A DNA stretch of 64,000 bases from NCBI GenBank assembly GCA_944368775.1, contig CALVXB010000010.1, positions 1 through 64,000 on the forward strand. Reading direction: 5' to 3'. Below, piece after piece: positions 20,282 to 61,717 of this stretch. This DNA is from an uncultured Clostridia bacterium (GTDB lineage: Bacteria; Bacillota; Clostridia; Christensenellales; Borkfalkiaceae). Position 1 is the stretch's first letter; each line of letters opens with the position of its first letter. The position numbers were made by a program, and so were the translations under genes. Under the pieces are notes generated by a model, which saw only the letters and a program-made list of their open reading frames with translations, was not told where the DNA came from and searched no databases.

Positions 20282-20294
20282 AGCGCCGAAATCG

Positions 20295-20409
20295 ATTCTT
20301 TGGGGCGGGGTGTAATTCCCCACCGGCAGTATAGTCTGCGAAGGGCCGCTTCGGCCCCCGAGCGGGTGCAATTCCCGCACCGACGGTATAGTCCGGACAG
20401 GAAAAGAAT
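20295..20409 (+). ncRNA. FMN riboswitch (RFN element)
   Basis: The conserved RFN landmarks are present: ggggcggggtg, aattccccaccggc, agtatagtc, cgagcgggtgcaattcccgcaccgac, ggtatagtccggac, and the closing P1 pair ATTCTT (20295) with AAGAAT (20404). It senses flavin mononucleotide. With the terminator at 20463 it should shut off ribU when FMN is plentiful. Confidence 0.95.
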
Positions 20410-20462
20410 GTTTTTCGGAATGAGCGGCGGGCGTTGCCCGCGCGCGAGCATTTCAAAAAACC

Positions 20463-49773: not shown

Positions 49774-49880
49774 GGCCGCCCCGCTTTTTGTGGTGAGGCC
49801 GCCGCGTTTCTTTGTGGTGAGGCCGCCGCGCTTTTTGTGGTGAGGCCGCCGCGTTTCTTTGTGGTGAGGCCGCCGCGCCG
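49771..49880. repeat. 23/24-bp tandem array starting at the lepB stop codon
   Basis: Four units (tgaggccgccgcg + ctttttgtgg or tttctttgtgg alternating) and a partial fifth that ends in a ggccgc/gcggcc inverted repeat. The first unit begins with the TGA stop of lepB. Confidence 0.93.
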
Positions 49881-49918: not shown

Positions 49919-50671
49919 ATGTATAAAGTAAGCATCGTAGATGACGAAAGCGCGGCGTGCGACGCGATCGAAAAGCAGCTGCTCGAATACGGCAGCGAGC
50001 ACGACGTCGAGTTTTCGGCCGAGCGTTACCTCGGGGCGGAGGCCTACATGGCGGCGCACGACGAGGACAGCGACATCATATTTTTAGACATCGATATGCC
50101 CGGGATCAACGGCATGGACCTCGCGCGGGAGATCCGCAAGACGAGGCCGAACGTGATCCTGATCTTCTGCACCAATCTCGAGCAGTTCGCCCTGAACGGG
50201 TACGAGGTGGAGGCGTGCGGCTATATCATCAAGCCCGTCCGCAAGTATTCCTTCGATTTTTACATGGACAAGTCGCTCAAATGGCTTTGGCGCAAGCGGA
50301 AGACGGACGCAGACGGCGAGGCGAAGATCTACGTCAAGGCGGTGGACGGGCGCAGAAAGGTGTGCGTGCGCGACATCTGCTATGTGGAGGTCGGCCGGCA
50401 CAAGCTGTTCTACCACGTCTACAAAAACGGCGCGCCCGCCGAGGTGATCCAGGCGCGCGGCTCGATGCAGGAGACGGAGGCGCAGCTCGCGCCCTTCGGC
50501 TTCGTCAGAAGCAGCATCAGCTACCTCGTCAACCTCGCCTACATAACGGAGATCCGCGGCAACGAGGTGTATCTGCCGGAGATGGTCTTATTTATGAGCC
50601 GCAACTATAAAAAGCCTTTCATCGAAGCATTTATGCGGTCGGTCTCGGAGGATGGGGTAGCCGTAAAATGA
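49919..50671 (+). CDS. LytTR-family response regulator
   Basis: 250 residues. Receiver domain (1-120) with acidic pocket VDDE, phospho-Asp in IIFLDIDMPGING, and Lys in GYIIKPVRK. The C-terminal LytTR DNA-binding domain (about 140-245) has YVEVGRHKLFYHVY and FVRSSISYLVNLAYITEI. These regulators usually control surface or quorum functions. It overlaps the histidine kinase gene by ATGA. ATG 49919 follows gggaggaaag. No separate promoter is obvious, so it may be read from lepB through the repeat array. Confidence 0.93.
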   Translation: MYKVSIVDDESAACDAIEKQLLEYGSEHDVEFSAERYLGAEAYMAAHDEDSDIIFLDIDMPGINGMDLAREIRKTRPNVILIFCTNLEQFALNGYEVEACGYIIKPVRKYSFDFYMDKSLKWLWRKRKTDADGEAKIYVKAVDGRRKVCVRDICYVEVGRHKLFYHVYKNGAPAEVIQARGSMQETEAQLAPFGFVRSSISYLVNLAYITEIRGNEVYLPEMVLFMSRNYKKPFIEAFMRSVSEDGVAVK

Positions 50672-51954
50672 TCGCGGTCGAGTTTATTTTGCGCAATCAG
50701 ATCATGATCGGGATGTTGGGGGCGCTCTTCCTGTTCGTATCGCTGCGGCAGCGCAGAAAGCTGTTTTGGCTGCTTATGCCCTGTTCGGCCGCGGCTGCCG
50801 TCGCCTTTTCGGCGCTGGTGCCCATCCCCATGCCCTTCAACTTCCTCGCCTACTTCGCGGCGATCGCCCTCGTCGTCGCTTTGTGCTTTAAGGGCGGCTG
50901 GAAGCAGGTGCTCTTTTCCACCACCTGCGCCTACTGCGTGCAGCATATGACCAGCAAGATCGTCTACCTGCTGCTCATGTTCTGGGCACAGTTCCAATAC
51001 GGGTACGTCACCTGCAATATCGAGCTGCTCAGCCTCGCGCTGCTGCTGCTGGCAAACGCGCTCGTGTGCATCCCCATCTACTGCATCTGGACGCGGCGCG
51101 TCATCCGCAGCGGCGCGCTCAAGTTCGACAACTTCAAAACGATCATCTACACCGCCGTCTTTATCCTCTGCGCCGTGTTCCTCTGCTTTTTGGCCGAGTG
51201 CGCGCTGGACGCGGGCTCGCCCTTCTTCGCGGCGGGGTACATCTGTCTGAACGCGCTGTGCGCGCTGTTCGCGTGGATGGTCTTGATGATGAACTTCACG
51301 AACAGCCGCGGCGAGTTCCTCACCGAAGAAAAGCGCACGTTGGAGCAGCTTCTCAAAAAGGACAAGCAGCAGTACGAGACGGCGCGGCAGAACATGGAGC
51401 GCATCAACATCCATTATCACGACATCAAAAAGCGCCGCGTGTTGGCGATGGACCCCGAAGAAGCGCGGCGGCTGGACGAAGAGCTGAAAAAAATCCAGCG
51501 ATTGTACTACACCGGCAACGAGGTGGTGGATATCACCCTCTCCGAAAAGGCCGCGCTGTGCGCGGAGGAGGGCATCCAATTCATCTGCTCGGTCGACGGC
51601 AGCCGCCTGAACATGATCAAGCCCTACCAGATCTACTCGCTGCTCGGCAACGCGGTCGACAACGCCGTCGAATCTCTGCGCGCCGTCGACGACGCCGATA
51701 AAAAGGTCATCCGCCTGGATATTTTCGGCAGGGGGAATATGTCTGTCATCCGCGTCGAAAACTACCTCGCGAGCGAGCCGAAAAAGGTAGACGGCATGCC
51801 GGTGACGACCAAGCCGGACAAGGAGAACCACGGCTTCGGGCTCAAGAGCATCAAGAGCATCGCCGAGGAATACGGCGGCATGATCCGCATCGGCACGGAA
51901 GATCACCAATTCACGCTCGTCGTCGCCATCCCGAACGGCCCGCAGAAAAAATGA
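50668..51954 (+). CDS. AgrC-like GHKL sensor histidine kinase
   Basis: 428 residues. Six or seven N-terminal membrane helices (about 10-215) form the sensor, then a coiled-coil dimerisation segment, the phospho-acceptor region INIHYHDIKKRR (about 250), the N box LLGNAVDNAVESL and the G box HGFGLKSIKSIAEEYGG of a GHKL ATPase. This is the HPK10-type partner of LytTR regulators. No autoinducing-peptide precursor (AgrD) or AgrB gene is adjacent, so the ligand is unknown. Confidence 0.92.
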   Translation: MIAVEFILRNQIMIGMLGALFLFVSLRQRRKLFWLLMPCSAAAAVAFSALVPIPMPFNFLAYFAAIALVVALCFKGGWKQVLFSTTCAYCVQHMTSKIVYLLLMFWAQFQYGYVTCNIELLSLALLLLANALVCIPIYCIWTRRVIRSGALKFDNFKTIIYTAVFILCAVFLCFLAECALDAGSPFFAAGYICLNALCALFAWMVLMMNFTNSRGEFLTEEKRTLEQLLKKDKQQYETARQNMERINIHYHDIKKRRVLAMDPEEARRLDEELKKIQRLYYTGNEVVDITLSEKAALCAEEGIQFICSVDGSRLNMIKPYQIYSLLGNAVDNAVESLRAVDDADKKVIRLDIFGRGNMSVIRVENYLASEPKKVDGMPVTTKPDKENHGFGLKSIKSIAEEYGGMIRIGTEDHQFTLVVAIPNGPQKK

Positions 51955-51975
51955 TAAAAAATGACACATTTTACG

Positions 51976-52017
51976 CCCGAAAGCGTCCGTTTCAGACGCT
52001 TTCGGGTTATTTTTTTG
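51976..52017 (+). terminator. Terminator of the two-component operon
   Basis: A perfect 12-bp stem (cccgaaagcgtc / gacgctttcggg) is followed by ttattttttt. Confidence 0.95.
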
Positions 52018-52093
52018 CAAAAAATTGCCGTGCGCGCGGCGGGCGGGCAAATTACCAAGGGGGGCGTTTTATGTGCGCACCGTGCCAAGGGTA

Positions 52094-52122
52094 TTGAAAT
52101 CTTGTGACGGCATTGTTATAAT
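52094..52122 (+). promoter_or_regulatory. Promoter of the GH3 gene cluster
   Basis: TTGAAA (52094-52099), 17 bp, TATAAT (52117-52122). Confidence 0.8.
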
Positions 52123-52129
52123 GACACGG

Positions 52130-52304
52130 AGAGAAGGATCGCATCGTGATGAAGCGGACAAAATTTTGTGATTTTTGAAACATTTTGTCCGGCCGCAAGT
52201 ATCCATGGATCCGCAGGCGAACGCTTGATCCCGGCGACCTTTTCTTTTACCCGATGGCCGGACTTGCCAACCCGGCGCATCAAAAATAAAACGGAGGTAA
52301 AAAG
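52130..52304 (+). promoter_or_regulatory. Long structured 5' leader of the GH3 cluster
   Basis: About 175 bases separate the promoter from the start codon. A perfect 10-bp hairpin (cggacaaaat 52155-52164 with attttgtccg 52182-52191) and further GC-rich complementary pieces (ggccgg / ccggc near 52254-52277) are visible. No known riboswitch consensus is recognised and no coding frame with a ribosome site is seen. Confidence 0.5.
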
Positions 52305-55300
52305 ATGAAGGCAACCAGTTTCAAGCGTATCGGCAAAAAGATCGGCGCAAAGTTACTTATGATCGTGCTTTGCGTTGCGATGCTCGTTTCGTCGGTATCG
52401 GCCTTTGCGATGCCGAAGATCGCAAAGGAAGAAAAGATGGGCTATGGCGATGACGGCATGGGCCATTACTATTCGGCGTTCTCCAGCAATGAAGAACTGA
52501 AGGAAGCGACCAAAGAAAAAAATATTGAGATCGCCAGCGAGGGCACGATCCTGCTCAAGAATGGCGGCGGCGTAGACGGCACGGAGGACAAGCTCCCGTA
52601 TACCGATATGAAGAATATCAGTATCTTCGGTATCAACTCCGACGCGTTCGGCTACGGCGGCACGGGTTCCGGTTCCGGTCAGCTCGAAAAAGGCGCAGAT
52701 ATCTACACCTCTTTCGAAGCGGAAGGCCTGAACATCAACCCGAAGCTGAAAGCTCTCTATCAGAGATATTCGGGCGGCTCCCTCAGCGCGGAAGCGAAGT
52801 GGACGACCCCTACATACGAAGACAAGGAGCTTTCCCTCGACTATTACACCCCCGCGATCGAAGCGACCTATGACCGCTACAGCGACGCGGCGTTCGTCGT
52901 CATCGGCCGTCTCGGCGGCGAAGGCGCTGACCTTGCGGTCGAGAACATCCAAAATCACGTCCGCCCGACGGGTGAAAACGGCGCGCTGGAAAAAGCTCCG
53001 CAGGATCATTACCTCGAGCTGACCTACAGAGAAGAACAGCTCATCGATTACGTTGCCGATAATTTTGAGAAGGTCGTCGTCCTCCTCAACTCCGGTAACA
53101 TCATCGAGTTCGGCGAGCTGGAAGAGAACCCCGAAGTCGATGCGATCGTTCACATCGGCCAGACGGGCGACTACGGCTTCCGCGGCTGCCTGCAGGTCCT
53201 CAAGGGCGATGTCAACCCCTCCGGCAGAACGGTGGACATCTACACGAGCGACTTCATGGTCGACCCCGTGATGCAGAACTTCGGCAACGGCGCACAGTAC
53301 GATGACAACTACAACAACACCCAGAACACGATGCTCATGCGCGGCAAAGACAGCGCAGGCCGTGCGACCATCGAGTATGAAGAGGGCATCTACCTCGGCT
53401 ACAAGTACTATGAGACCATGTACGCCGAGATCGCGGCGGGCAACGTCGATCTGTCGAGCAAAGAGGCGAAGGCAGTCCTCGAGACCGCCGACCTCAACGG
53501 CGAGGAAGGGAAAGACGGCTACTCCCCGTACACCGGCGCGGACGACTGGTATGACAGAAACGTCGTCTATCCGTTCGGCTACGGCCTGTCCTACACCACC
53601 TTCGAGTGGAGCGCCTTCTCCGTCGAGATGGAAGGCACGCTCGCTGCGGACACGCAGTTCACGGCTACCGTCACCGTCAAGAACACGGGCGACGTCGCCG
53701 GTAAGGACGTCGTGGAATTCTACGTCGAGGCTCCTTACACCAAGGGCGGCATCGAAAAGTCCAAGGTCAGCCTGCTGAACTTTGAAAAGACCAAACTCCT
53801 CCAGCCGGGCGAAAAGGTCACCATCAAGACCACCTGGGACGCGTACGACATGGCGTCTTGGGACTGGAAGGATGCGAACGGCAACGACAACACCGGCTAT
53901 GAGCTGGATGCGGGCGACTACGTCTTCTACGCTGCGAAGAACTCGCACGACTGGGCGAAGGACGCTCTGAGCGACACGATCACCCTGTCCGCTCTGCAGA
54001 TCAAGAATTCGCCGCACACCGGCGTCGCGATGGACAACGTGTTCACCGACCCCGACGACGACGAGGCTATCTACAACTACTCCACGATCAGCCCGACGAT
54101 GACCATCATGTCCCGTGCGAACTTCATCGGCACCTATCCCGAATCCCCGACGGCGGACGAGCGCGACCTGACGAAGAACGCCGAAGCGACCAACCCGATG
54201 CTGAATGGCATCGAGAACGGCGACGACTTCAAGATCACCAAGAAAGAGATCGACGACAAGCTCAAATGGGGCTATGTCTTCGGTACGGATGACGACTCGC
54301 ACGAGCTGTGGGCGACCGAGCTCGGCGAAGATTGGGCTCTCCCCGCAGACTGGACGCAGGCCAAAGATGATTCGGCAGCCGTCGAGATCCGTCTGCCCGA
54401 GATGATGAACTATGACCCGTATGACGAAGAGACGATCGTCAAGAGCGACAACGACGCGATCGACGGCCTGACCGCAGCCGCGGCATGGACGAAGTTCATG
54501 AACCAGCTCACCTATGAAGAGATGAAGGAGATCATCTCCATCGGCTTCTTCAAGACGGTCGGCAACGATCGTATCGGTAAGGAAGAGGCGGTCGACGCCG
54601 ACGGCCCTTGCACGATCGGCGGCCAGACGAAGGACGGTTACATCTCCGCCCGTGGTTCTTCGGGTACCCGTTACTGGTGCTCCGCACAGATGGTCACGGC
54701 GACCTGGAACAAGGAACTCGCACACGAGCAGGGCATCCTGATCGGTGAAGAGGGTATGTGGAACGGCTACAACGGCTGGTACGCACCTTCGATGAACACC
54801 CACCGCAGCCCGTTCTCCGGCCGTAACTTCGAGTATTACAGCCAGGACGGCGTGCTCGCGGGCCGCATCACCGCAGAGGTCCTCTCCGCGACCGGCTCCA
54901 GGGGCGTTTACTCCTACATCAAGCATTACTTCCTCAATGACCAGGAGCAGAACCGTAACAACGTTACGACCTGGGCAGACGAGCAGACGATGCGTGAGAT
55001 CTACATGAAGCCTTTCGAGTACGCAGTGGTCTCGGGCGGCTCCTGCGGCGTCATGACCGGCTTCAACTGCCTCGGCGTCGTGAACAACATCGAAAACTAT
55101 CCCGGCATGACCCAGGTCCTCCGCGAGGAGTGGGGCTTTGACGGCAACGTCGTCACCGACTACCAGGTCGGCACCGTCGGCGATGCAAAAGACAACCTCG
55201 AAGTCATGCACTATGCAGGCACGAACATCCGTCTCGGCGACATCAACGCGGAATCCCGTGGTTCCGGTACGTGGGATCCCGAGCTGCGCGGCGGCAAGGG

Positions 55301-56492
55301 CGGCGTCGTTGTTCCCGAGGGCGGCACCGACTTCGGCGACGGCTACACCGACCGTATGTACTACTATGTCCGCACCCGCGCGATGGAACTGCTGTACACG
55401 CACGTCCGTTCCAACGCGAATGACAACGGCGCAGACTTCCAGAAGAACTTCGTCGGCAGCACGATCGAAGTCCCCGCAGGCGTCCGTAACTTCAGCGTTC
55501 CGATCCCTGTCGGCTTCGCCGAGGATGCAGACGTGACGTACCAGGTCGGCTCCAACAACCTGCCCGCAGGCGTCACCTTCAATGCAAACAACATGGCGGT
55601 CGACGTCGACAATGCGGAAGTCGGCACCCGCGGCACGATCGGCATCAAGGCGTACTACAACGGCTGGGCCAACAAGGAAGTTGACTTCACCGTGAACGTC
55701 GTTGCCCCCGTCGCGTTCGACGGCGCAACGCAGCTCACCCCCGGCACCGCGTATGAAGCGACCGTTTCTCAGGACTTCTGGGAAGCGAACCCGAACCTCG
55801 GTTCGCAGGAGGCCGGTATCAAGTCCGTCGCGCTGAAGGCGGAAGGCCTGCCCGCAGGTCTGACCTTCGACGCCGCGACCGGCAAGATCTCCGGTACGCC
55901 TACGGCAGCCGGCGTCTATGACGTGAAGCTGTCCGTCGATGTCACCTCCCAGGTTGTAAACTGGTGGTGGGTCACGACGCGCACGGATACGTACACCAGC
56001 AACGTCACGCTGAATGTCGGCGAACTCGTCACCATCACCGTGAACGGCGTCGAGCAGCAGGTCGAAAAGGGTAAGCCGATGGCTGAACCCGCAGCGCCCG
56101 AAGCTCCGCTCGGCCAGCAGTTCGCAGGCTGGTACGTCGGCGACGAGAAGTTCGACTTCTCCACCCCGATCAACGAGTCCATCGAGCTGACCGCGAAGTT
56201 CGAGCTGATCCCCGATGACATCCAGTTCCGCGTCGAAAACGGCATGATCCAGGCGAGCATCAACGGCGGCGAATGGGTCGACGTGATCGCCGTCGAAGAC
56301 CTGACCGGCCCGCAGGGCCCGCAGGGCGAACAGGGCGAAAAGGGTCCGCAGGGCGAACCCGGTAAGGACGCTCCGGAACCCGAAGGCTGCGGCTCCACGA
56401 TCGGCGCCGGCACGGCCGTGATGGTCAGCGCATTGCTCGGCCTCGCTTGCATCAGCATCTTCGTCGTGAAGGCTGCTGCCAAGAGAAGATAA
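52305..56492 (+). CDS. Secreted, C-terminally anchored GH3 glycosidase with swapped domain order
   Basis: 1395 residues. Signal peptide (1-36). Domain order is reversed relative to common GH3: first the alpha/beta sandwich (LLKNGGG, FGINSDAFGYGGTGSGS), then a fibronectin-III-like part (FGYGLSYTTFEW), then the TIM barrel with nucleophile Asp952 in VVTDYQVG and KHYFLNDQE. Behind it are Ig-like modules (PAGLTFDAATGKISGTP), an InlB-type repeat, a short collagen-like Gly-Pro-Gln run, and GCGST plus a membrane helix and AAAKRR tail. Family activity is beta-glucosidase/xylosidase; the exact sugar is not predictable. Codon use favours CGT and GGT unlike neighbours. Reversed GH3 order is known from Ruminococcus albus and Butyrivibrio enzymes. 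Confidence 0.9.
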   Translation: MKATSFKRIGKKIGAKLLMIVLCVAMLVSSVSAFAMPKIAKEEKMGYGDDGMGHYYSAFSSNEELKEATKEKNIEIASEGTILLKNGGGVDGTEDKLPYTDMKNISIFGINSDAFGYGGTGSGSGQLEKGADIYTSFEAEGLNINPKLKALYQRYSGGSLSAEAKWTTPTYEDKELSLDYYTPAIEATYDRYSDAAFVVIGRLGGEGADLAVENIQNHVRPTGENGALEKAPQDHYLELTYREEQLIDYVADNFEKVVVLLNSGNIIEFGELEENPEVDAIVHIGQTGDYGFRGCLQVLKGDVNPSGRTVDIYTSDFMVDPVMQNFGNGAQYDDNYNNTQNTMLMRGKDSAGRATIEYEEGIYLGYKYYETMYAEIAAGNVDLSSKEAKAVLETADLNGEEGKDGYSPYTGADDWYDRNVVYPFGYGLSYTTFEWSAFSVEMEGTLAADTQFTATVTVKNTGDVAGKDVVEFYVEAPYTKGGIEKSKVSLLNFEKTKLLQPGEKVTIKTTWDAYDMASWDWKDANGNDNTGYELDAGDYVFYAAKNSHDWAKDALSDTITLSALQIKNSPHTGVAMDNVFTDPDDDEAIYNYSTISPTMTIMSRANFIGTYPESPTADERDLTKNAEATNPMLNGIENGDDFKITKKEIDDKLKWGYVFGTDDDSHELWATELGEDWALPADWTQAKDDSAAVEIRLPEMMNYDPYDEETIVKSDNDAIDGLTAAAAWTKFMNQLTYEEMKEIISIGFFKTVGNDRIGKEEAVDADGPCTIGGQTKDGYISARGSSGTRYWCSAQMVTATWNKELAHEQGILIGEEGMWNGYNGWYAPSMNTHRSPFSGRNFEYYSQDGVLAGRITAEVLSATGSRGVYSYIKHYFLNDQEQNRNNVTTWADEQTMREIYMKPFEYAVVSGGSCGVMTGFNCLGVVNNIENYPGMTQVLREEWGFDGNVVTDYQVGTVGDAKDNLEVMHYAGTNIRLGDINAESRGSGTWDPELRGGKGGVVVPEGGTDFGDGYTDRMYYYVRTRAMELLYTHVRSNANDNGADFQKNFVGSTIEVPAGVRNFSVPIPVGFAEDADVTYQVGSNNLPAGVTFNANNMAVDVDNAEVGTRGTIGIKAYYNGWANKEVDFTVNVVAPVAFDGATQLTPGTAYEATVSQDFWEANPNLGSQEAGIKSVALKAEGLPAGLTFDAATGKISGTPTAAGVYDVKLSVDVTSQVVNWWWVTTRTDTYTSNVTLNVGELVTITVNGVEQQVEKGKPMAEPAAPEAPLGQQFAGWYVGDEKFDFSTPINESIELTAKFELIPDDIQFRVENGMIQASINGGEWVDVIAVEDLTGPQGPQGEQGEKGPQGEPGKDAPEPEGCGSTIGAGTAVMVSALLGLACISIFVVKAAAKRR

Positions 56493-56562
56493 GAGCATCC
56501 GGATGAAACTGAAACACTTTTCGCTTCGGGCCGGCTGAAACCGGACGACGAAACTCCGTAGG

Positions 56563-56589
56563 TGTGGGGGAGGCTCTGCTTCCCCCACA
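56563..56589 (+). promoter_or_regulatory. Strong intergenic hairpin without T-tract
   Basis: A 12-bp stem (tgtgggggaggc with gcttcccccaca, one G-U) and a 3-base loop in the 295-bp gap after the first GH3 gene. Lacking a U-run, it more likely stabilises or processes the mRNA than terminates it. No promoter is evident before the next gene. Confidence 0.6.
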
Positions 56590-56787
56590 TATGGATTTCG
56601 CATTCCGCGGCGATCGCCGCAGAACGGAGCGATGCGTACCGCCCGCATTCGCGGGCAGACAAACTATGGGTAAGACGCTTCCCGTTTATGAACAGGGGGC
56701 GGAAGGTCCGGGCGCGCCCGGCGCGCGGCGGCTGCCGCGGCAGGGGCCCCGGTACACAATCATAGTAAACGGAGGAAATCGGAAAAC

Positions 56788-58455
56788 ATGAAAAAGCTGT
56801 TCAAAAAGCTGCATTTGCCGATCGTATTGATGCTGATCCTGTCGATCCTGCTGTCCGGCTGCGTCATGAGCCTGACGTGCATCAGCCACATCGACCGCGA
56901 TCGCAACGGCGAATGCGACAACTGCGGCATCGCGATGGAAGTCCCGCGGGAAGACATCGAAAAGATCGAGGTCACCACGCTTCCGACCAAGACGTACTAC
57001 GGCCGCAATGAAACTTTGGATGTGACCGGCGGCAAGATCACCGTCACCTATAACGACGGCAAGCCGGATGAAGAGATCGACATGACGGCCGAGGGCGTCA
57101 CCATCGTCGCGCCCGGCATGGGTGTCGACGGCAAAAAGAGCGTGCAGGTCAAATACGGCGGCTACAGCGCCACCTTCGTCATCGAAGTCGGCTCCGCACG
57201 CTACACCGTCTCCTTCGACCTCGGGTATGAAGGCGGCGAGATGGAATCGCAGTTCGTCACGCAGAACACCCTGATGGAAGAGCCCGCCGCGCCCGAACGC
57301 GAAGGCTACAGCTTCCTCGGCTGGTTCACCGACGAGGCTTGCACGCAGCGCTTCGACTTTGCATTGACCCCCGTCACCGCAGACATGACCCTGTATGCGG
57401 GCTGGGCGCAGATCTATATGGTCACCTATGACGCCAATTACGACGGCGGCGCCGACAAGACGGCAGAATCCGTCAACGGCCGCGCCGACACGAGCATCCG
57501 CCCGGACGACCGCGACGGCTGGCACTTCACCGGCTGGTATTCCGATCCCGAATGCACGCAGGCGTTTGACCCGAACACCATCCTGACCGGCGACATCACC
57601 CTGTACGCGGGCTGGGTCTCCTCTTCGACGGAGATGATCACCGTCACCTTCGACCCGAACTACGAGGGCGCCGAAGCGACGACGCAGCAGGTGCCGAGCG
57701 GCAGCCCCGTCAACGCACCCGCAACGCCCGAGCGCGCGAACGTCACCGAAAAGGGCCATCAGGCTTCCGGCTTCACCTTCGGCGGCTGGTACACCGATCC
57801 CGCCTGCACGACGGCGTATGACTTCTCGGCGGCTGTGACCGAGGCCATGACGCTGTATGCGAAGTGGACGGGCGAATATGTCTTCGAAGCTGAGCACATC
57901 GACCTGAGCGGCCCCGACGGCAACGGCCTGCAGGGCATGGGCGCTTCCGGCGGTTCGGTCGGCCCGAACATGGTCGACTCGGTACCTCCCGATTATGACT
58001 ACCTGATCGCCAGCAACGGCTATTACCTGACCTATCTCTATAAGACGATGCTCGAGATCGAATTCGTCATCGAGTCCGACCGCGCCGTGTCCGACGCGAC
58101 CATCGTCATCCGCGTCAGCGCCGAGACCGTGGGTTACGCGCTCAGCCCGAACAGGAACGACGGCACGACGGAGAACGGCACGCTGTATTCGATGTTCATG
58201 ATCACGCTCAATGATTCGCCGATCGAATACCCGACCATCGAGATGGAGGGCGGCCGCCCGCAGTTCGAGGACTTCACGCTGACCGTGAACGCCACGCTGA
58301 AGGAAGGCACCAACGTCATCAAGATGATAGTCGCGAACGATCACGGCATGGGCGGCACCATGCAGGCGACCGCGCCGGTCCTTGACTGCATCAAGGTCAC
58401 GACCTCGGCCGACCTGACCTGGAACCCGATCGTCAGCAACGAGAAAGGCCAGTAA
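56788..58455 (+). CDS. Lipoprotein with InlB-type repeats and CBM-like C-terminus
   Basis: 555 residues. Lipobox LLSGC (Cys25). An early segment HIDRDRNGECDNCG resembles a dockerin/zinc-like Cys loop. Then come an Ig-like domain (about 50-135, TLPTKTYYGRNETLDVTGG), three InlB/Listeria-Bacteroides repeats (FLGWFTDEACTQRFDF; FTGWYSDPECTQAF; FGGWYTDPACTTAYDF) and a C-terminal beta domain (about 365-545) that begins YVFEAEHIDLSG, as in CBM6/35 modules. It probably binds glycan at the cell surface for the flanking GH3 enzymes. ATG 56788 follows cggagg, with the ribosome site about 18 bases upstream. Confidence 0.82.
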   Translation: MKKLFKKLHLPIVLMLILSILLSGCVMSLTCISHIDRDRNGECDNCGIAMEVPREDIEKIEVTTLPTKTYYGRNETLDVTGGKITVTYNDGKPDEEIDMTAEGVTIVAPGMGVDGKKSVQVKYGGYSATFVIEVGSARYTVSFDLGYEGGEMESQFVTQNTLMEEPAAPEREGYSFLGWFTDEACTQRFDFALTPVTADMTLYAGWAQIYMVTYDANYDGGADKTAESVNGRADTSIRPDDRDGWHFTGWYSDPECTQAFDPNTILTGDITLYAGWVSSSTEMITVTFDPNYEGAEATTQQVPSGSPVNAPATPERANVTEKGHQASGFTFGGWYTDPACTTAYDFSAAVTEAMTLYAKWTGEYVFEAEHIDLSGPDGNGLQGMGASGGSVGPNMVDSVPPDYDYLIASNGYYLTYLYKTMLEIEFVIESDRAVSDATIVIRVSAETVGYALSPNRNDGTTENGTLYSMFMITLNDSPIEYPTIEMEGGRPQFEDFTLTVNATLKEGTNVIKMIVANDHGMGGTMQATAPVLDCIKVTTSADLTWNPIVSNEKGQ

Positions 58456-58531
58456 TCGACGGTACGCGGACGCGCAGCCGTCCGCGCGGGCGGCTGCGTG
58501 ATCCGAAAGTCAATACAAACAGGAGACAGAT

Positions 58532-61500
58532 ATGAAGTATATTAAAGCGATTTTTACACACGCGCGGACCCTCGTGTGGTTCATCGTGAGCGTTGTGCTG
58601 ATTGCGATCCTTATTACGGCTGCTGTGTTGTCCGAGACCGTTCTGTTCGAAGTGTTCCGAATGGCGCTCGGCAGCCGTAAGACCGAAACCTTCGGCGGCG
58701 GTCAGTTCTACGTGTCCGATTATGAGGATAAGGAAGATGCGCTGGAAAAGGCTAACGCCCTGAACGAGCGCATCAACGAGGAGGGCATCACCCTCCTGAA
58801 GAACGAGGGCAACGCCCTGCCGCTCGCGGAGGGCGCCAAGGTGTCCGTGTTCGGCAAGAACTCGGTCAACCTCGCCTACGGCGGCTCGGGTTCGGGCGCG
58901 TTCACCGTCACGGAGGACACCCCGACCCTGTACCAGAGCCTGAGAGACGCCGGGTTCGAGTACAACACCGTCATGTATGACTTCTACAAGAACAACGGCC
59001 AGTCCGGCGACGGCAGGCCCGCGTCCCCGACGATGGACAACGCCCGCGACACCATCCCCGGCTTCAAGACGGGCGAGACCCCTCTGGATCGCTATACCCA
59101 GGACGTCAAGGACAGCTACGCGGACTATAACGACGCGGCGCTCGTCGTGTTCACCCGTATCGGCGGCGAGTCCTTCGACCTCCCCCGTACGATGCAGAAT
59201 TCGGACGGCAGCCCGATCGACGGCGCGCTGGACGCGAACGACCATTACCTCGAGCTCGACAAGAACGAGCAGGATATGCTGGTCGAGGCGTGCAACAACT
59301 TCGATAAAGTCATCATCATCATCAACTCCTCCACCTCGATGGAGCTCGGCTTCCTCGACGGGGCGGACGACCACGACGAGACCCTCGTCGACGGCATGAA
59401 CGGCATCGCCGACAAGATCGATGCCTGCGTGTGGATCGGCGGCCCCGGGTACTCGGGCATCAACGCGCTCGGCAGAGTGCTCAACGGTTCGGTCAATCCT
59501 TCGGGCAAGACGGTCGACACCTATCGCCGTGACTTCACCCAGGATCCGACGTATCTCAACTTCTCCGACTACCTCGTTTCCCGCGGCAACCTGTATCGCG
59601 TTTCGGACGGCAATCAGCCCTCCGTTGCCGAGCACTATGTCGACTACGAGGAAGGCATCTATGTCGGCTATCGCTACTACGAGACCCGCGGCTTCACCGA
59701 CGGCGAAGAGTGGTATAACGACCAGGTCGTGTTCCCGTACGGCTACGGCCTCTCCTACACCACCTTCGATTGGGAAGTGACCGAAATGTCCTTTGAGGAC
59801 GGCGCGGACCTTTCGTGGGATGCGGACGAGGACATGCAGTTCTCCGTCACCGTCAGCGTCACCAACACCGGCGACGTCGCCGGCAAGGATGTCGTGCAGG
59901 TCTACATGACCGCTCCGTACACCGCGGGCGGCATCGAGAAGGCGCACGTCGCGCTCGTCGGCTTTGCCAAGACCGAGCTCATCGAGCCGGGCGACACCAA
60001 GGAAGTCACCGTCACCTTCAACGGCTACGATTTCGCCTCTTACGATTACAGCGACGCCAACGCCAACGGCTTCAAGGGCTACGAGCTGGATGCGGGCGAG
60101 TATGAAGTGAAGGTCATGCGCAACGCGCACGAGATGGAAGACTCCCGCACCTTCGAACTTTCCGAAGGCGTGCAGTATGCAAAAGACCCCGTCACCGACT
60201 ACGAAGTCGTGAACCGCTATGACGACGTCAGTGAATCCGAATACGGCATGGAAAGCGTCCTTTCGCGCAGCGATTGGGAAGGCACCTGGCCGAAGAACGA
60301 AGTGCTCGCGGGCTCGGATACCGAGCGCACGATCACGAGCGACGTCATGAACAACGTGATCAAGAGCACGGCGACGAACAACCCGATCGTCAACGACCCC
60401 ACCGTGCAGATGCCGACCGTCGCGGAAGTCAGCGCGCCGACGGGCACCATGCAGATCTATGACCTCGTCCAGATGAAGGAAGGCGTGGATCCGGATGCGG
60501 AAGAGATCAGCGCGGAAGACTACCTGCGCGACGAGCTCGGCACGACCATCGTCGATTACGACGACGAGCGCTGGGATGCTTACCTCGACCTGTTGACGGC
60601 GAATGAAATGATGTCCTTCACGATGAACGGCGCATTCCAGACGCAGGCGCTCAACAGCATCGGCCTGATGTCCTCGCTCGAATCGGACGGCCCTGTCGGC
60701 TTCGTCTACTTCATGGCGCAGATCGAGAGCGAGAACCCCGTCTACCAGACCTGCTCGTACGCGAGCGAATGCGTGATCGCGGCGACGTGGAACACCGAGC
60801 TCGCCTATCAGATGGGCCTCTCCATCGGCAACGAAGGCATCCTCGGCGACCAGCGCGGCCTCGGCCGTCCTTACTCCGGCTGGTATGCTCCGGCAGTCAA
60901 CATCCACCGCAGCCCGTTCGGCGGCCGTAACTTCGAGTATTACAGCGAAGACCCGCTCATGTCCGGCAAGCTCGCGGCGGAAGTCATCCAGGGCGCGCGC
61001 AGCAAGGGCGTCATCTGCTTCGTCAAGCACTTCGCGGTCAACGAACAGGAGACCAACCGCTCGGGCGTCTGCACCTGGCTGACCGAGCAGTCCCTGCGTG
61101 AGATCTATCTCAAGCCGTTCGAAATGGCGGTCAAAGAGGGCGGCACGATGGGCATGATGAGCTCCTTCAACCGTATCGGTACGACCTGGACGGGCGGCGA
61201 TTACAGGCTGCTCACCGAGATCCTCCGCAACGAGTGGGGCTTCCAGGGCATAGTCATCACCGACTTCAACACCGAGCCCTTCATGGATACCAAGCAGATG
61301 GCGTACGCCGGCGGCGACCTCAACCTCGCCACCACGCCGCACGATTGGGAGCCGGAGACCGCGGCCGATTACACCGTCCTGCGCACCAGCGTCAAGAACA
61401 TCCTCTACGCGCTGACCCGTTCCAACGCGATGAACGGCCACGGCGAGGGCGCGTACTACCTCACCTACTACGCTTGGTGGGAAGTCGCACTCTTCTTCGG

Positions 61501-61618
61501 CGGCATCGGTCTGATCGTCGTCCTGGCGGCTTGGGGCTTCTTCGTGATCTGGAGCGTCGTCAAACAAGTCAAGCGAGAAGAGGCTGTCGCTGCACAGACG
61601 GATAAGAAAAACGAGTAA
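58532..61618 (+). CDS. Membrane-anchored GH3 glycosidase with swapped domain order
   Basis: 1028 residues with one membrane helix near each end (about 10-38 and 975-1000), so the catalytic part faces outward on two anchors. The order again is sandwich domain first (LLKNEGNALPLAEGAKVSVFGKN), fibronectin-III-like (YGYGLSYTTFDW), then TIM barrel with VKHFAVNEQETNRSG and nucleophile Asp911 in IVITDFNTE. It is related throughout to the GH3 at 52305 but lacks the Ig/InlB/collagen tail. ATG 58532 follows aggagac. A hairpin (cgcagccg / cggctgcg) lies in the 76-bp gap before it. Confidence 0.9.
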   Translation: MKYIKAIFTHARTLVWFIVSVVLIAILITAAVLSETVLFEVFRMALGSRKTETFGGGQFYVSDYEDKEDALEKANALNERINEEGITLLKNEGNALPLAEGAKVSVFGKNSVNLAYGGSGSGAFTVTEDTPTLYQSLRDAGFEYNTVMYDFYKNNGQSGDGRPASPTMDNARDTIPGFKTGETPLDRYTQDVKDSYADYNDAALVVFTRIGGESFDLPRTMQNSDGSPIDGALDANDHYLELDKNEQDMLVEACNNFDKVIIIINSSTSMELGFLDGADDHDETLVDGMNGIADKIDACVWIGGPGYSGINALGRVLNGSVNPSGKTVDTYRRDFTQDPTYLNFSDYLVSRGNLYRVSDGNQPSVAEHYVDYEEGIYVGYRYYETRGFTDGEEWYNDQVVFPYGYGLSYTTFDWEVTEMSFEDGADLSWDADEDMQFSVTVSVTNTGDVAGKDVVQVYMTAPYTAGGIEKAHVALVGFAKTELIEPGDTKEVTVTFNGYDFASYDYSDANANGFKGYELDAGEYEVKVMRNAHEMEDSRTFELSEGVQYAKDPVTDYEVVNRYDDVSESEYGMESVLSRSDWEGTWPKNEVLAGSDTERTITSDVMNNVIKSTATNNPIVNDPTVQMPTVAEVSAPTGTMQIYDLVQMKEGVDPDAEEISAEDYLRDELGTTIVDYDDERWDAYLDLLTANEMMSFTMNGAFQTQALNSIGLMSSLESDGPVGFVYFMAQIESENPVYQTCSYASECVIAATWNTELAYQMGLSIGNEGILGDQRGLGRPYSGWYAPAVNIHRSPFGGRNFEYYSEDPLMSGKLAAEVIQGARSKGVICFVKHFAVNEQETNRSGVCTWLTEQSLREIYLKPFEMAVKEGGTMGMMSSFNRIGTTWTGGDYRLLTEILRNEWGFQGIVITDFNTEPFMDTKQMAYAGGDLNLATTPHDWEPETAADYTVLRTSVKNILYALTRSNAMNGHGEGAYYLTYYAWWEVALFFGGIGLIVVLAAWGFFVIWSVVKQVKREEAVAAQTDKKNE

Positions 61619-61682: not shown

Positions 61683-61717
61683 ATACCGCCGCAGAATTTT
61701 TCTGCGGCGGTATTTTT
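61683..61717 (+). terminator. Terminator of the GH3 cluster
   Basis: A perfect 13-bp stem (ataccgccgcaga / tctgcggcggtat) is followed by tttt. Confidence 0.92.

Follow-up and report, generated by a model that had tools for sequence, protein, structure and literature searches.

A two-component-linked GH3-lipoprotein-GH3 unit as a probable surface glycan-cutting module of Bacillota

What do two permuted glycoside hydrolase family 3 (GH3) enzymes and a lipoprotein do together in a genome, and what controls them? The question is raised by a 64,000-nucleotide stretch of an uncultured Clostridia bacterium of the Borkfalkiaceae (assembly GCA_944368775.1, contig CALVXB010000010.1, positions 1 to 64,000; hereafter the window), in which three + strand open reading frames (ORFs), found where a first-pass annotation of the sequence had placed them, encode an enzyme that we call GH3long, a lipoprotein and a second enzyme, GH3m (together, the trio). 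Our answer, which we consider probable, is that the trio belongs to a five-gene, two-component-controlled surface glycan-cutting module of Bacillota that lacks a transporter of its own.

A two-component pair dedicated to GH3 loci

The first-pass annotation had found no local regulator, which proved wrong: directly upstream of the trio, on the same strand, lie a LytTR response regulator (49919-50671; coding score; receiver domain PF00072, E 2.3e-16; LytTR DNA-binding domain PF04397, E 7.8e-12) and a GHKL sensor histidine kinase (50668-51954; PF14501, E 3.2e-24). The N-terminal half of the kinase consists of membrane helices without an extracellular domain, its H-box reads IHYHDIKKRR, and its gene stops about 20 bases before an intrinsic terminator (51975-52007, + strand) that precedes the trio promoter. 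Ahead of the pair, between a signal peptidase gene and the response regulator, the window also carries three near-identical terminator-like copies of TGTGGTGAGGCCGCCGCG (49789-49853).

Gene calling around GH3 matches in the source genome (G000; 1.78 Mb, 95.5% complete) placed the pair in a wider setting. This genome holds 17 GH3_C matches, 8 GHKL kinases and 10 LytTR domains, and a permuted GH3 adjoins every one of the kinases (8/8) and all but one of the LytTR regulators (9/10). Three trios are present, on contigs C10 (that of the window), C5 and C11, alongside modules made of a two-component system (TCS), a lipoprotein and GH3m on C16, C3, C10 (at ~75 kb) and C13 (twice), and a TCS-GH3 module on C22. 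The window trio is one unit within a paralogous expansion of at least eight TCS-linked modules. One GH3 gene breaks off where C22 ends (L026) and resumes where C5 starts (L018:1-588), so the two contigs appear adjacent; the C5 trio would then come right after the TCS-GH3 module.

The same association extends through the genus. Strong GHKL matches occurred in 6 of 25 same-genus genomes (G000, 8; G001, 12; G002, 1; G016, 1; G018, 16; G022, 1), and permuted anchored GH3 loci were found in exactly these six; such loci house 12/12 kinases of G001 and all 10 examined in G018. The LytTR/GHKL pair is dedicated to these GH3 loci and belongs to the unit. If the pair were instead an unrelated neighbour, with the trio expressed constitutively from a strong promoter, one would expect the terminator that separates pair from trio, the strong codon use and promoter described below, and a locus such as L107, where a 99% identical trio stands without the pair. 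It would leave the placement of all eight kinases beside GH3 modules, the all-or-none pattern across the genus and the peak of 21-nt repeats upstream of modules (below) without an account, and we hold it to be very unlikely. A TCS with two GH3 genes, at ~30% identity, was also seen on an IMG/VR contig classed as viral (L187); the contig may in fact be bacterial, or the genes may be carried by a prophage. A phage or mobile-virus origin was rejected, this weak match at 30% identity being the single relative on a viral contig.

Conservation, promoter and predicted operator

We then scanned 84,980 species genomes with a trio-type GH3m profile and obtained 80 loci. Together with the loci of the source genome and of G018, these contained the order GH3long-lipoprotein-GH3m, all in the same orientation and mostly across Bacillota, in 62 cases in 60 loci, a number that is evidence of conserved order and not of frequency because the query was itself a trio-type GH3m. 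The trio thus stays linked in relatives, the outcome on which the first-pass annotation had made its reading depend. The 80 loci range over chicken-gut Candidatus Borkfalkia and Protoclostridium, the cultured Blautia schinkii DSM 10518, whose trio is at L127, Lachnospiraceae, Oscillospiraceae, Izemoplasmatales and Acholeplasmataceae; most of the genomes are metagenome-assembled genomes (MAGs), in which absence is weak evidence. A TCS lies directly upstream in 32 of the 62 trios, and a contig end in 10. On a tree, the sequences of GH3long and those of GH3m hardly mix (4-5 changes versus ~43 when shuffled), and the distances within the two families correlate (Mantel r 0.78 versus a permuted maximum of 0.14), so the pairing is ancient and the two enzymes are inherited jointly. 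This separation and co-inheritance rule out that the pair arose by repeated local duplication.

In Candidatus Borkfalkia faecigallinarum, the trio DNA of L107 (3594-13050) is 97-99% identical to window positions 52264-61581, the identity beginning near the ribosome-binding site, and the L107 promoter and other flanks differ from those of the window. This suggests that the trio coding block was recently exchanged. The L107 GH3long bears an insert of ~46 residues.

Transcription of the window trio is predicted to begin from a TG-extended sigma-70-type promoter, TTGAAA-17-TATAAT (52094-52122, + strand; 11/12 matches; conserved in L107, L109 and L110), and a second intrinsic terminator follows GH3m (61683-61713, + strand). 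Delimited by this promoter and the two terminators, the three genes are predicted to form one operon. It contains no transporter, as the first-pass annotation had said; none was found among the ORFs or by Pfam between the two-component genes and the genes beyond the terminator. A bias towards CGT and GGT, from which high expression had been proposed, is real: CGT makes up 28% of Arg codons in the trio versus 2% in 44 other genes of the window, and GGT 11% of Gly codons versus 3%, with GGG at 2% versus 22%. The trio avoids CGG, GGG and GTG, as do the ribosomal genes of a close relative, and its shift follows the ribosomal-gene direction for most codons, CGT and GGT exceeding the ribosomal genes. 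Such a codon profile does indicate high expression.

From the position of the promoter, a start site was predicted near 52129, giving a 5′ leader of ~175 nt (52130-52304, + strand) that ends at GH3long, whose start is preceded by the ribosome-binding site CGGAGGT. The leader folds better than shuffled sequences (z -2.20; 4/200 shuffles as good), and those of three orthologues gave z scores of -2.09, -1.90 and -0.49; in their alignment, conservation holds at both ends and is lost in between. Conserved structure is suggested by these folds, and the consensus of the four leaders has 23 pairs, 6 of them with two-sided changes; since its covariation term is net unfavourable, we make no claim of a conserved RNA. 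Could such a leader, as a sugar-sensing riboswitch or an attenuator, be the main controller? Scores near -2 and a similar shape in three of four orthologues, together with the conserved 5′ and 3′ ends, are what one would look for, but the leader matches no Rfam family at the gathering score, contains no terminator and has that unfavourable covariation term, and the leaders of paralogous modules are unrelated to it and in some cases very short. We regard control by the leader as extremely unlikely. The structured leader of the first-pass annotation therefore keeps its length and its moderate structure, the latter in three of four orthologues, and loses its place as the hallmark of the system, being absent elsewhere; on these comparisons it appears to be a minor, lineage-limited feature at the level of orthologues. 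The one Rfam match in the window is an FMN riboswitch (RF00050, 101.6 bits) at 20292-20412.

Control by the two-component pair predicts a binding site upstream of the modules. In LytTR operators, a 9-bp sequence is directly repeated after a 12-bp spacer, and the site usually stands ~10 bp ahead of the -35 element (PMC6193735). We searched 108 distinct upstream regions for directly repeated 9-mers, allowing one mismatch. A spacing of exactly 21 nt occurred in 28 of the regions, versus ~4 at other spacings and a mean of 3.4 (maximum 8) in Markov shuffles. The peak has the geometry of a LytTR operator, and we take these repeats as predicted sites. The C16 module, for example, has GTTGGGGCA twice, 21 nt apart. 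The letters of the repeat vary from module to module, which fits pair-specific regulators. In the window, the possible site comprises TACCAAGGG and TGCCAAGGG (52053-52091, + strand), and a ACCGTGCCAAGGGTATTGAAA block beside the -35 element is conserved in the orthologous loci L107, L109 and L110; because the spacing of the former two is 30 nt and not the canonical 21, the window's own operator remains a candidate only.

Anchored enzymes, lipoprotein and their likely work

Both enzymes have the reversed domain order that had been read from the translations. In GH3long (1395 aa; 52305-56492, + strand), a signal peptide is followed by GH3_C (aa 82-366), Fn3-like (468-547), GH3_N (776-977) and He_PIG (1142-1235) domains in Pfam, then by a collagen-like stalk, the motif GCGS, one helix and KRR. 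GH3m (1028 aa; 58532-61618, + strand) has its permuted core (GH3_C 86-380, Fn3-like 453-530, GH3_N 745-912) between one N-terminal and one C-terminal transmembrane helix, so that the tethers assigned earlier, a single C-terminal helix in the first enzyme and two helices in the second, are also borne out. Among solved structures, GH3long is matched best by GlyA1 (5k6l, E 7.5e-60), the founder of the permuted GH3 subfamily (PDB 5K6L-5K6O; PMC5104943). Like GlyA1, with which they share an origin in gut Firmicutes, both enzymes run from alpha/beta-sandwich through FnIII to barrel, with the acid/base Glu on the first domain and the nucleophile Asp on the last (PMC5104943), and both residues fall at the GlyA1 positions. 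Among trio proteins having the region, the nucleophile is kept in 61/61 GH3long and 57/57 GH3m and the acid/base in 54/57 and 59/59, and a Lys-His pair is invariant. A dead GH3long is ruled out by these conserved residues, and a NagZ-type enzyme by the Glu on the sandwich domain and by closest structures that are beta-glucosidases. The two ends of the GlyA1 chain combine into a small sheet (PMC5104943), so a GH3m anchored at both ends could fold. Unlike GlyA1, the enzymes described here are membrane-tethered, share a predicted operon with a lipoprotein and a second GH3, and are TCS-linked. They also differ beside the nucleophile, where GlyA1 has Trp-710: the GH3m family has Phe or Tyr and the GH3long family mostly Ala, Tyr or Met (in the window, Phe in GH3m and Tyr in GH3long), and because this residue varies the substrate is not transferable from GlyA1.

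The lipoprotein (555 aa; 56788-58455, + strand) has the lipobox LLSGC and three InlB-type (List_Bact) repeats, and a lipobox-like start is found in 63/71 trio lipoproteins with enough upstream sequence. Its C-terminal domain (57883-58452) matches no Pfam CBM at cut-off; AlphaFold, working from 60 sequences, models it with a mean pLDDT of 96.8 as a beta-sandwich of CBM35/CBM6 type. The best Foldseek match is 2w3j (E 4.8e-5; TM 0.69 by target), and each of the ten best matches is a CBM35 or a structure that includes one (E 4.8e-5 to 7.5e-4). The annotated combination of InlB repeats and a CBM-like domain thus agrees with the predicted fold, which differs from known CBM35/CBM6 modules in its ~190 residues with inserts and in sharing 8-17% identity with its best structural matches. 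Siblings of the module in the source genome have, in place of this lipoprotein, a GH16 enzyme (C13b, E 2.4e-41), Big_3 with CBM6/CBM35 (C16) or a weak GDSL-like hydrolase (C13a), and the GH16, CBM6 and CBM35 domains provide what we take to be the best evidence for work on glycans. After GH3m, many C13a-type modules have a small multi-helix protein of ~130-150 aa (L021:4459-4869, L060:6375-6773, L064:8788-9189 and others). The C11 trio is followed by genes for a leucine-rich repeat/InlB surface protein, a membrane protein, an MBOAT acyltransferase and an AMP-ligase (L019:7716-12496), and such a set, which recalls cell-surface acylation operons, also follows trios in L110, L111, L116, L122, L127, L136 and L186.

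The best-known roles of LytTR/GHKL pairs lie in the sensing of peptides and of the envelope. The module might accordingly serve envelope remodelling or competition, the GH3s trimming glycans of the cell's own or a neighbour's surface (teichoic acid sugars, capsule or exopolysaccharide) and an AgrC-like kinase sensing a peptide or the state of the envelope. A kinase with membrane helices only, an operon without a transporter, homologous trios in Acholeplasmataceae and Izemoplasmatales MAGs and acylation-type genes after some trios, C11 included, would all suit such a role. We nevertheless think it unlikely, given that the GH16 and CBM6/CBM35 domains in sibling slots are typical of glycan degradation, that the distribution is one of gut and rumen, and that GlyA1-type GH3s are plant-glycan beta-glycosidases (PMC5104943).

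For a five-gene module that cuts glycans at the surface, a working order can be proposed. The multi-helix kinase would detect a signal, probably tied to a breakdown product or an envelope-borne ligand, and activate the LytTR regulator, which would bind direct repeats upstream of the strong promoter and switch on the trio. All three products would act outside the cytoplasmic membrane: the lipoprotein may hold glycan through its CBM35-like domain, GH3m would be tethered at both ends, and GH3long would extend further out on its collagen-like stalk, held by its Cys-containing tail. Both GH3s are predicted to be exo-acting retaining glycosidases releasing sugars that would be imported by transporters encoded elsewhere. 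The membrane-bound glycan-degrading complex of the first-pass annotation is thereby upheld as a set of three linked genes for degrading glycans at the surface, on gene order, catalytic residues and sibling slots; its physical assembly we infer, as we do the signal, the direction of activation and the substrate.

Several observations weigh against this proposal. Twenty of the 62 trios have room upstream and yet no directly upstream same-strand TCS, although at least one of them (L052) has a TCS divergently, and the trio of L107, 99% identical to that of the window, is among the loci without one upstream. The trio count is biased as a frequency by the query that fetched the 80 loci, the repeats at the window's own promoter are 30 and not 21 nt apart, and, without the beta-glucosidase Trp beside the nucleophile, the substrate may be a different one.

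The GH3long tail, GCGS followed by a transmembrane helix and KRR (56385-56489, + strand), resembles a sorting signal, with a short motif around an invariant Cys, a helix and a basic end. In the loci examined, 34 tails have the form GC[x][S/G/K/A], nearly all of them on GH3long, and the window tail reaches the curated cut-off of no NCBIfam model (LPXTG, NPXTG, MYXO, Synergist). A degenerate DNA pattern for the tails was uninformative, giving fewer hits in the source genome than its control, and a profile was used instead. Of 40 genomes of the genus, 22 have between 1 and 18 proteins each that match it, and 18 have no match; the tails sit on otherwise unrelated proteins. Carriers in the source genome include a metallophosphatase/Big_3 protein (C6; L256:2349-4649) and a choice-of-anchor I protein (C8; L257:100-2568). 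The same genome encodes a candidate CPBP protease (C17:7925-8749, minus strand; L249, L260), distinct from its other CPBP protein and weakly like MrtJ, MrtS and the Mrt core, whose family is present in 21 of the 40 genomes and in the more distant G068 and G088. Tails and protease occur together in 18 genomes, tails only in 4, protease only in 3 and neither in 15 (Fisher p 7.9e-5); most of the 15 that lack both belong to two clades, and because losses cluster on the tree an independent-pairs test has too few contrasts. It is possible, if rather doubtful, that GH3long is one substrate of an undescribed Bacillota C-terminal sorting system, with lipidation of the Cys and cleavage by a dedicated CPBP protease; the four genomes with tails and no protease, and the three of the reverse kind, count against it. 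We treat the pairing as a lead, not a finding. MYXO-CTERM, Synergist-CTERM and JDVT-CTERM signals go with CPBP-family myxosortases and share the invariant Cys motif, the helix, the basic end, many substrates per genome and a co-occurring CPBP protein (PMC11980579). Here, in contrast, the phylum is different, no NCBIfam model is reached and the protease is weakly similar. If true, the tail would point to a lipid-anchoring route in Bacillota and a Gram-positive counterpart of MYXO-CTERM and myxosortase.

Comparison with known glycan systems

The enzymes are known in kind, and the five-gene unit appears to have been noticed earlier in passing. A literature search found no paper combining the GH3 family, LytTR and GHKL; by reading, we came upon a passage on Butyrivibrio proteoclasticus B316 (2010), which in one sentence places three LytTR regulators each near a secreted GH3 with a C-terminal helix, in polysaccharide utilization loci (PULs) 7, 21 and 33 (PMC2914790). 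The LytTR-GH3 association is thus not wholly new; the passage itself has neither a trio nor a lipoprotein nor an operator, and it analyses neither conservation across families nor dedication (PMC2914790). What the present analysis adds is the five-gene architecture, its breadth, the co-inheritance, the dedication of the pair and the predicted operator geometry.

With its predicted glycan-active enzymes and its local regulator, the unit resembles Gram-positive PULs (gpPULs), and the gpPUL Ros-7 lists RR[LytTR] and a kinase (PMC5320581). Here the local regulator is LytTR/GHKL and the GH3s are exo-enzymes by domains and residues; because the gpPUL definition requires a transport system (PMC5320581), the locus, having none, is not a gpPUL by definition. 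Such units would make up a recurrent, sensor-linked surface glycosidase system of many Bacillota, mostly uncultured, from gut Borkfalkia-like bacteria to relatives of Acholeplasma, and transporter-based PUL definitions would miss them. Since every module brings a sensor of its own along with its enzymes, the specificity of GHKL/LytTR glycan sensing becomes testable. In having many paralogous, locally regulated surface glycan units per genome, the arrangement resembles the Bacteroidetes PULs with hybrid two-component sensors, from which it differs in lacking SusC/SusD and in having as its sensor a stand-alone GHKL kinase that has no extracellular domain.

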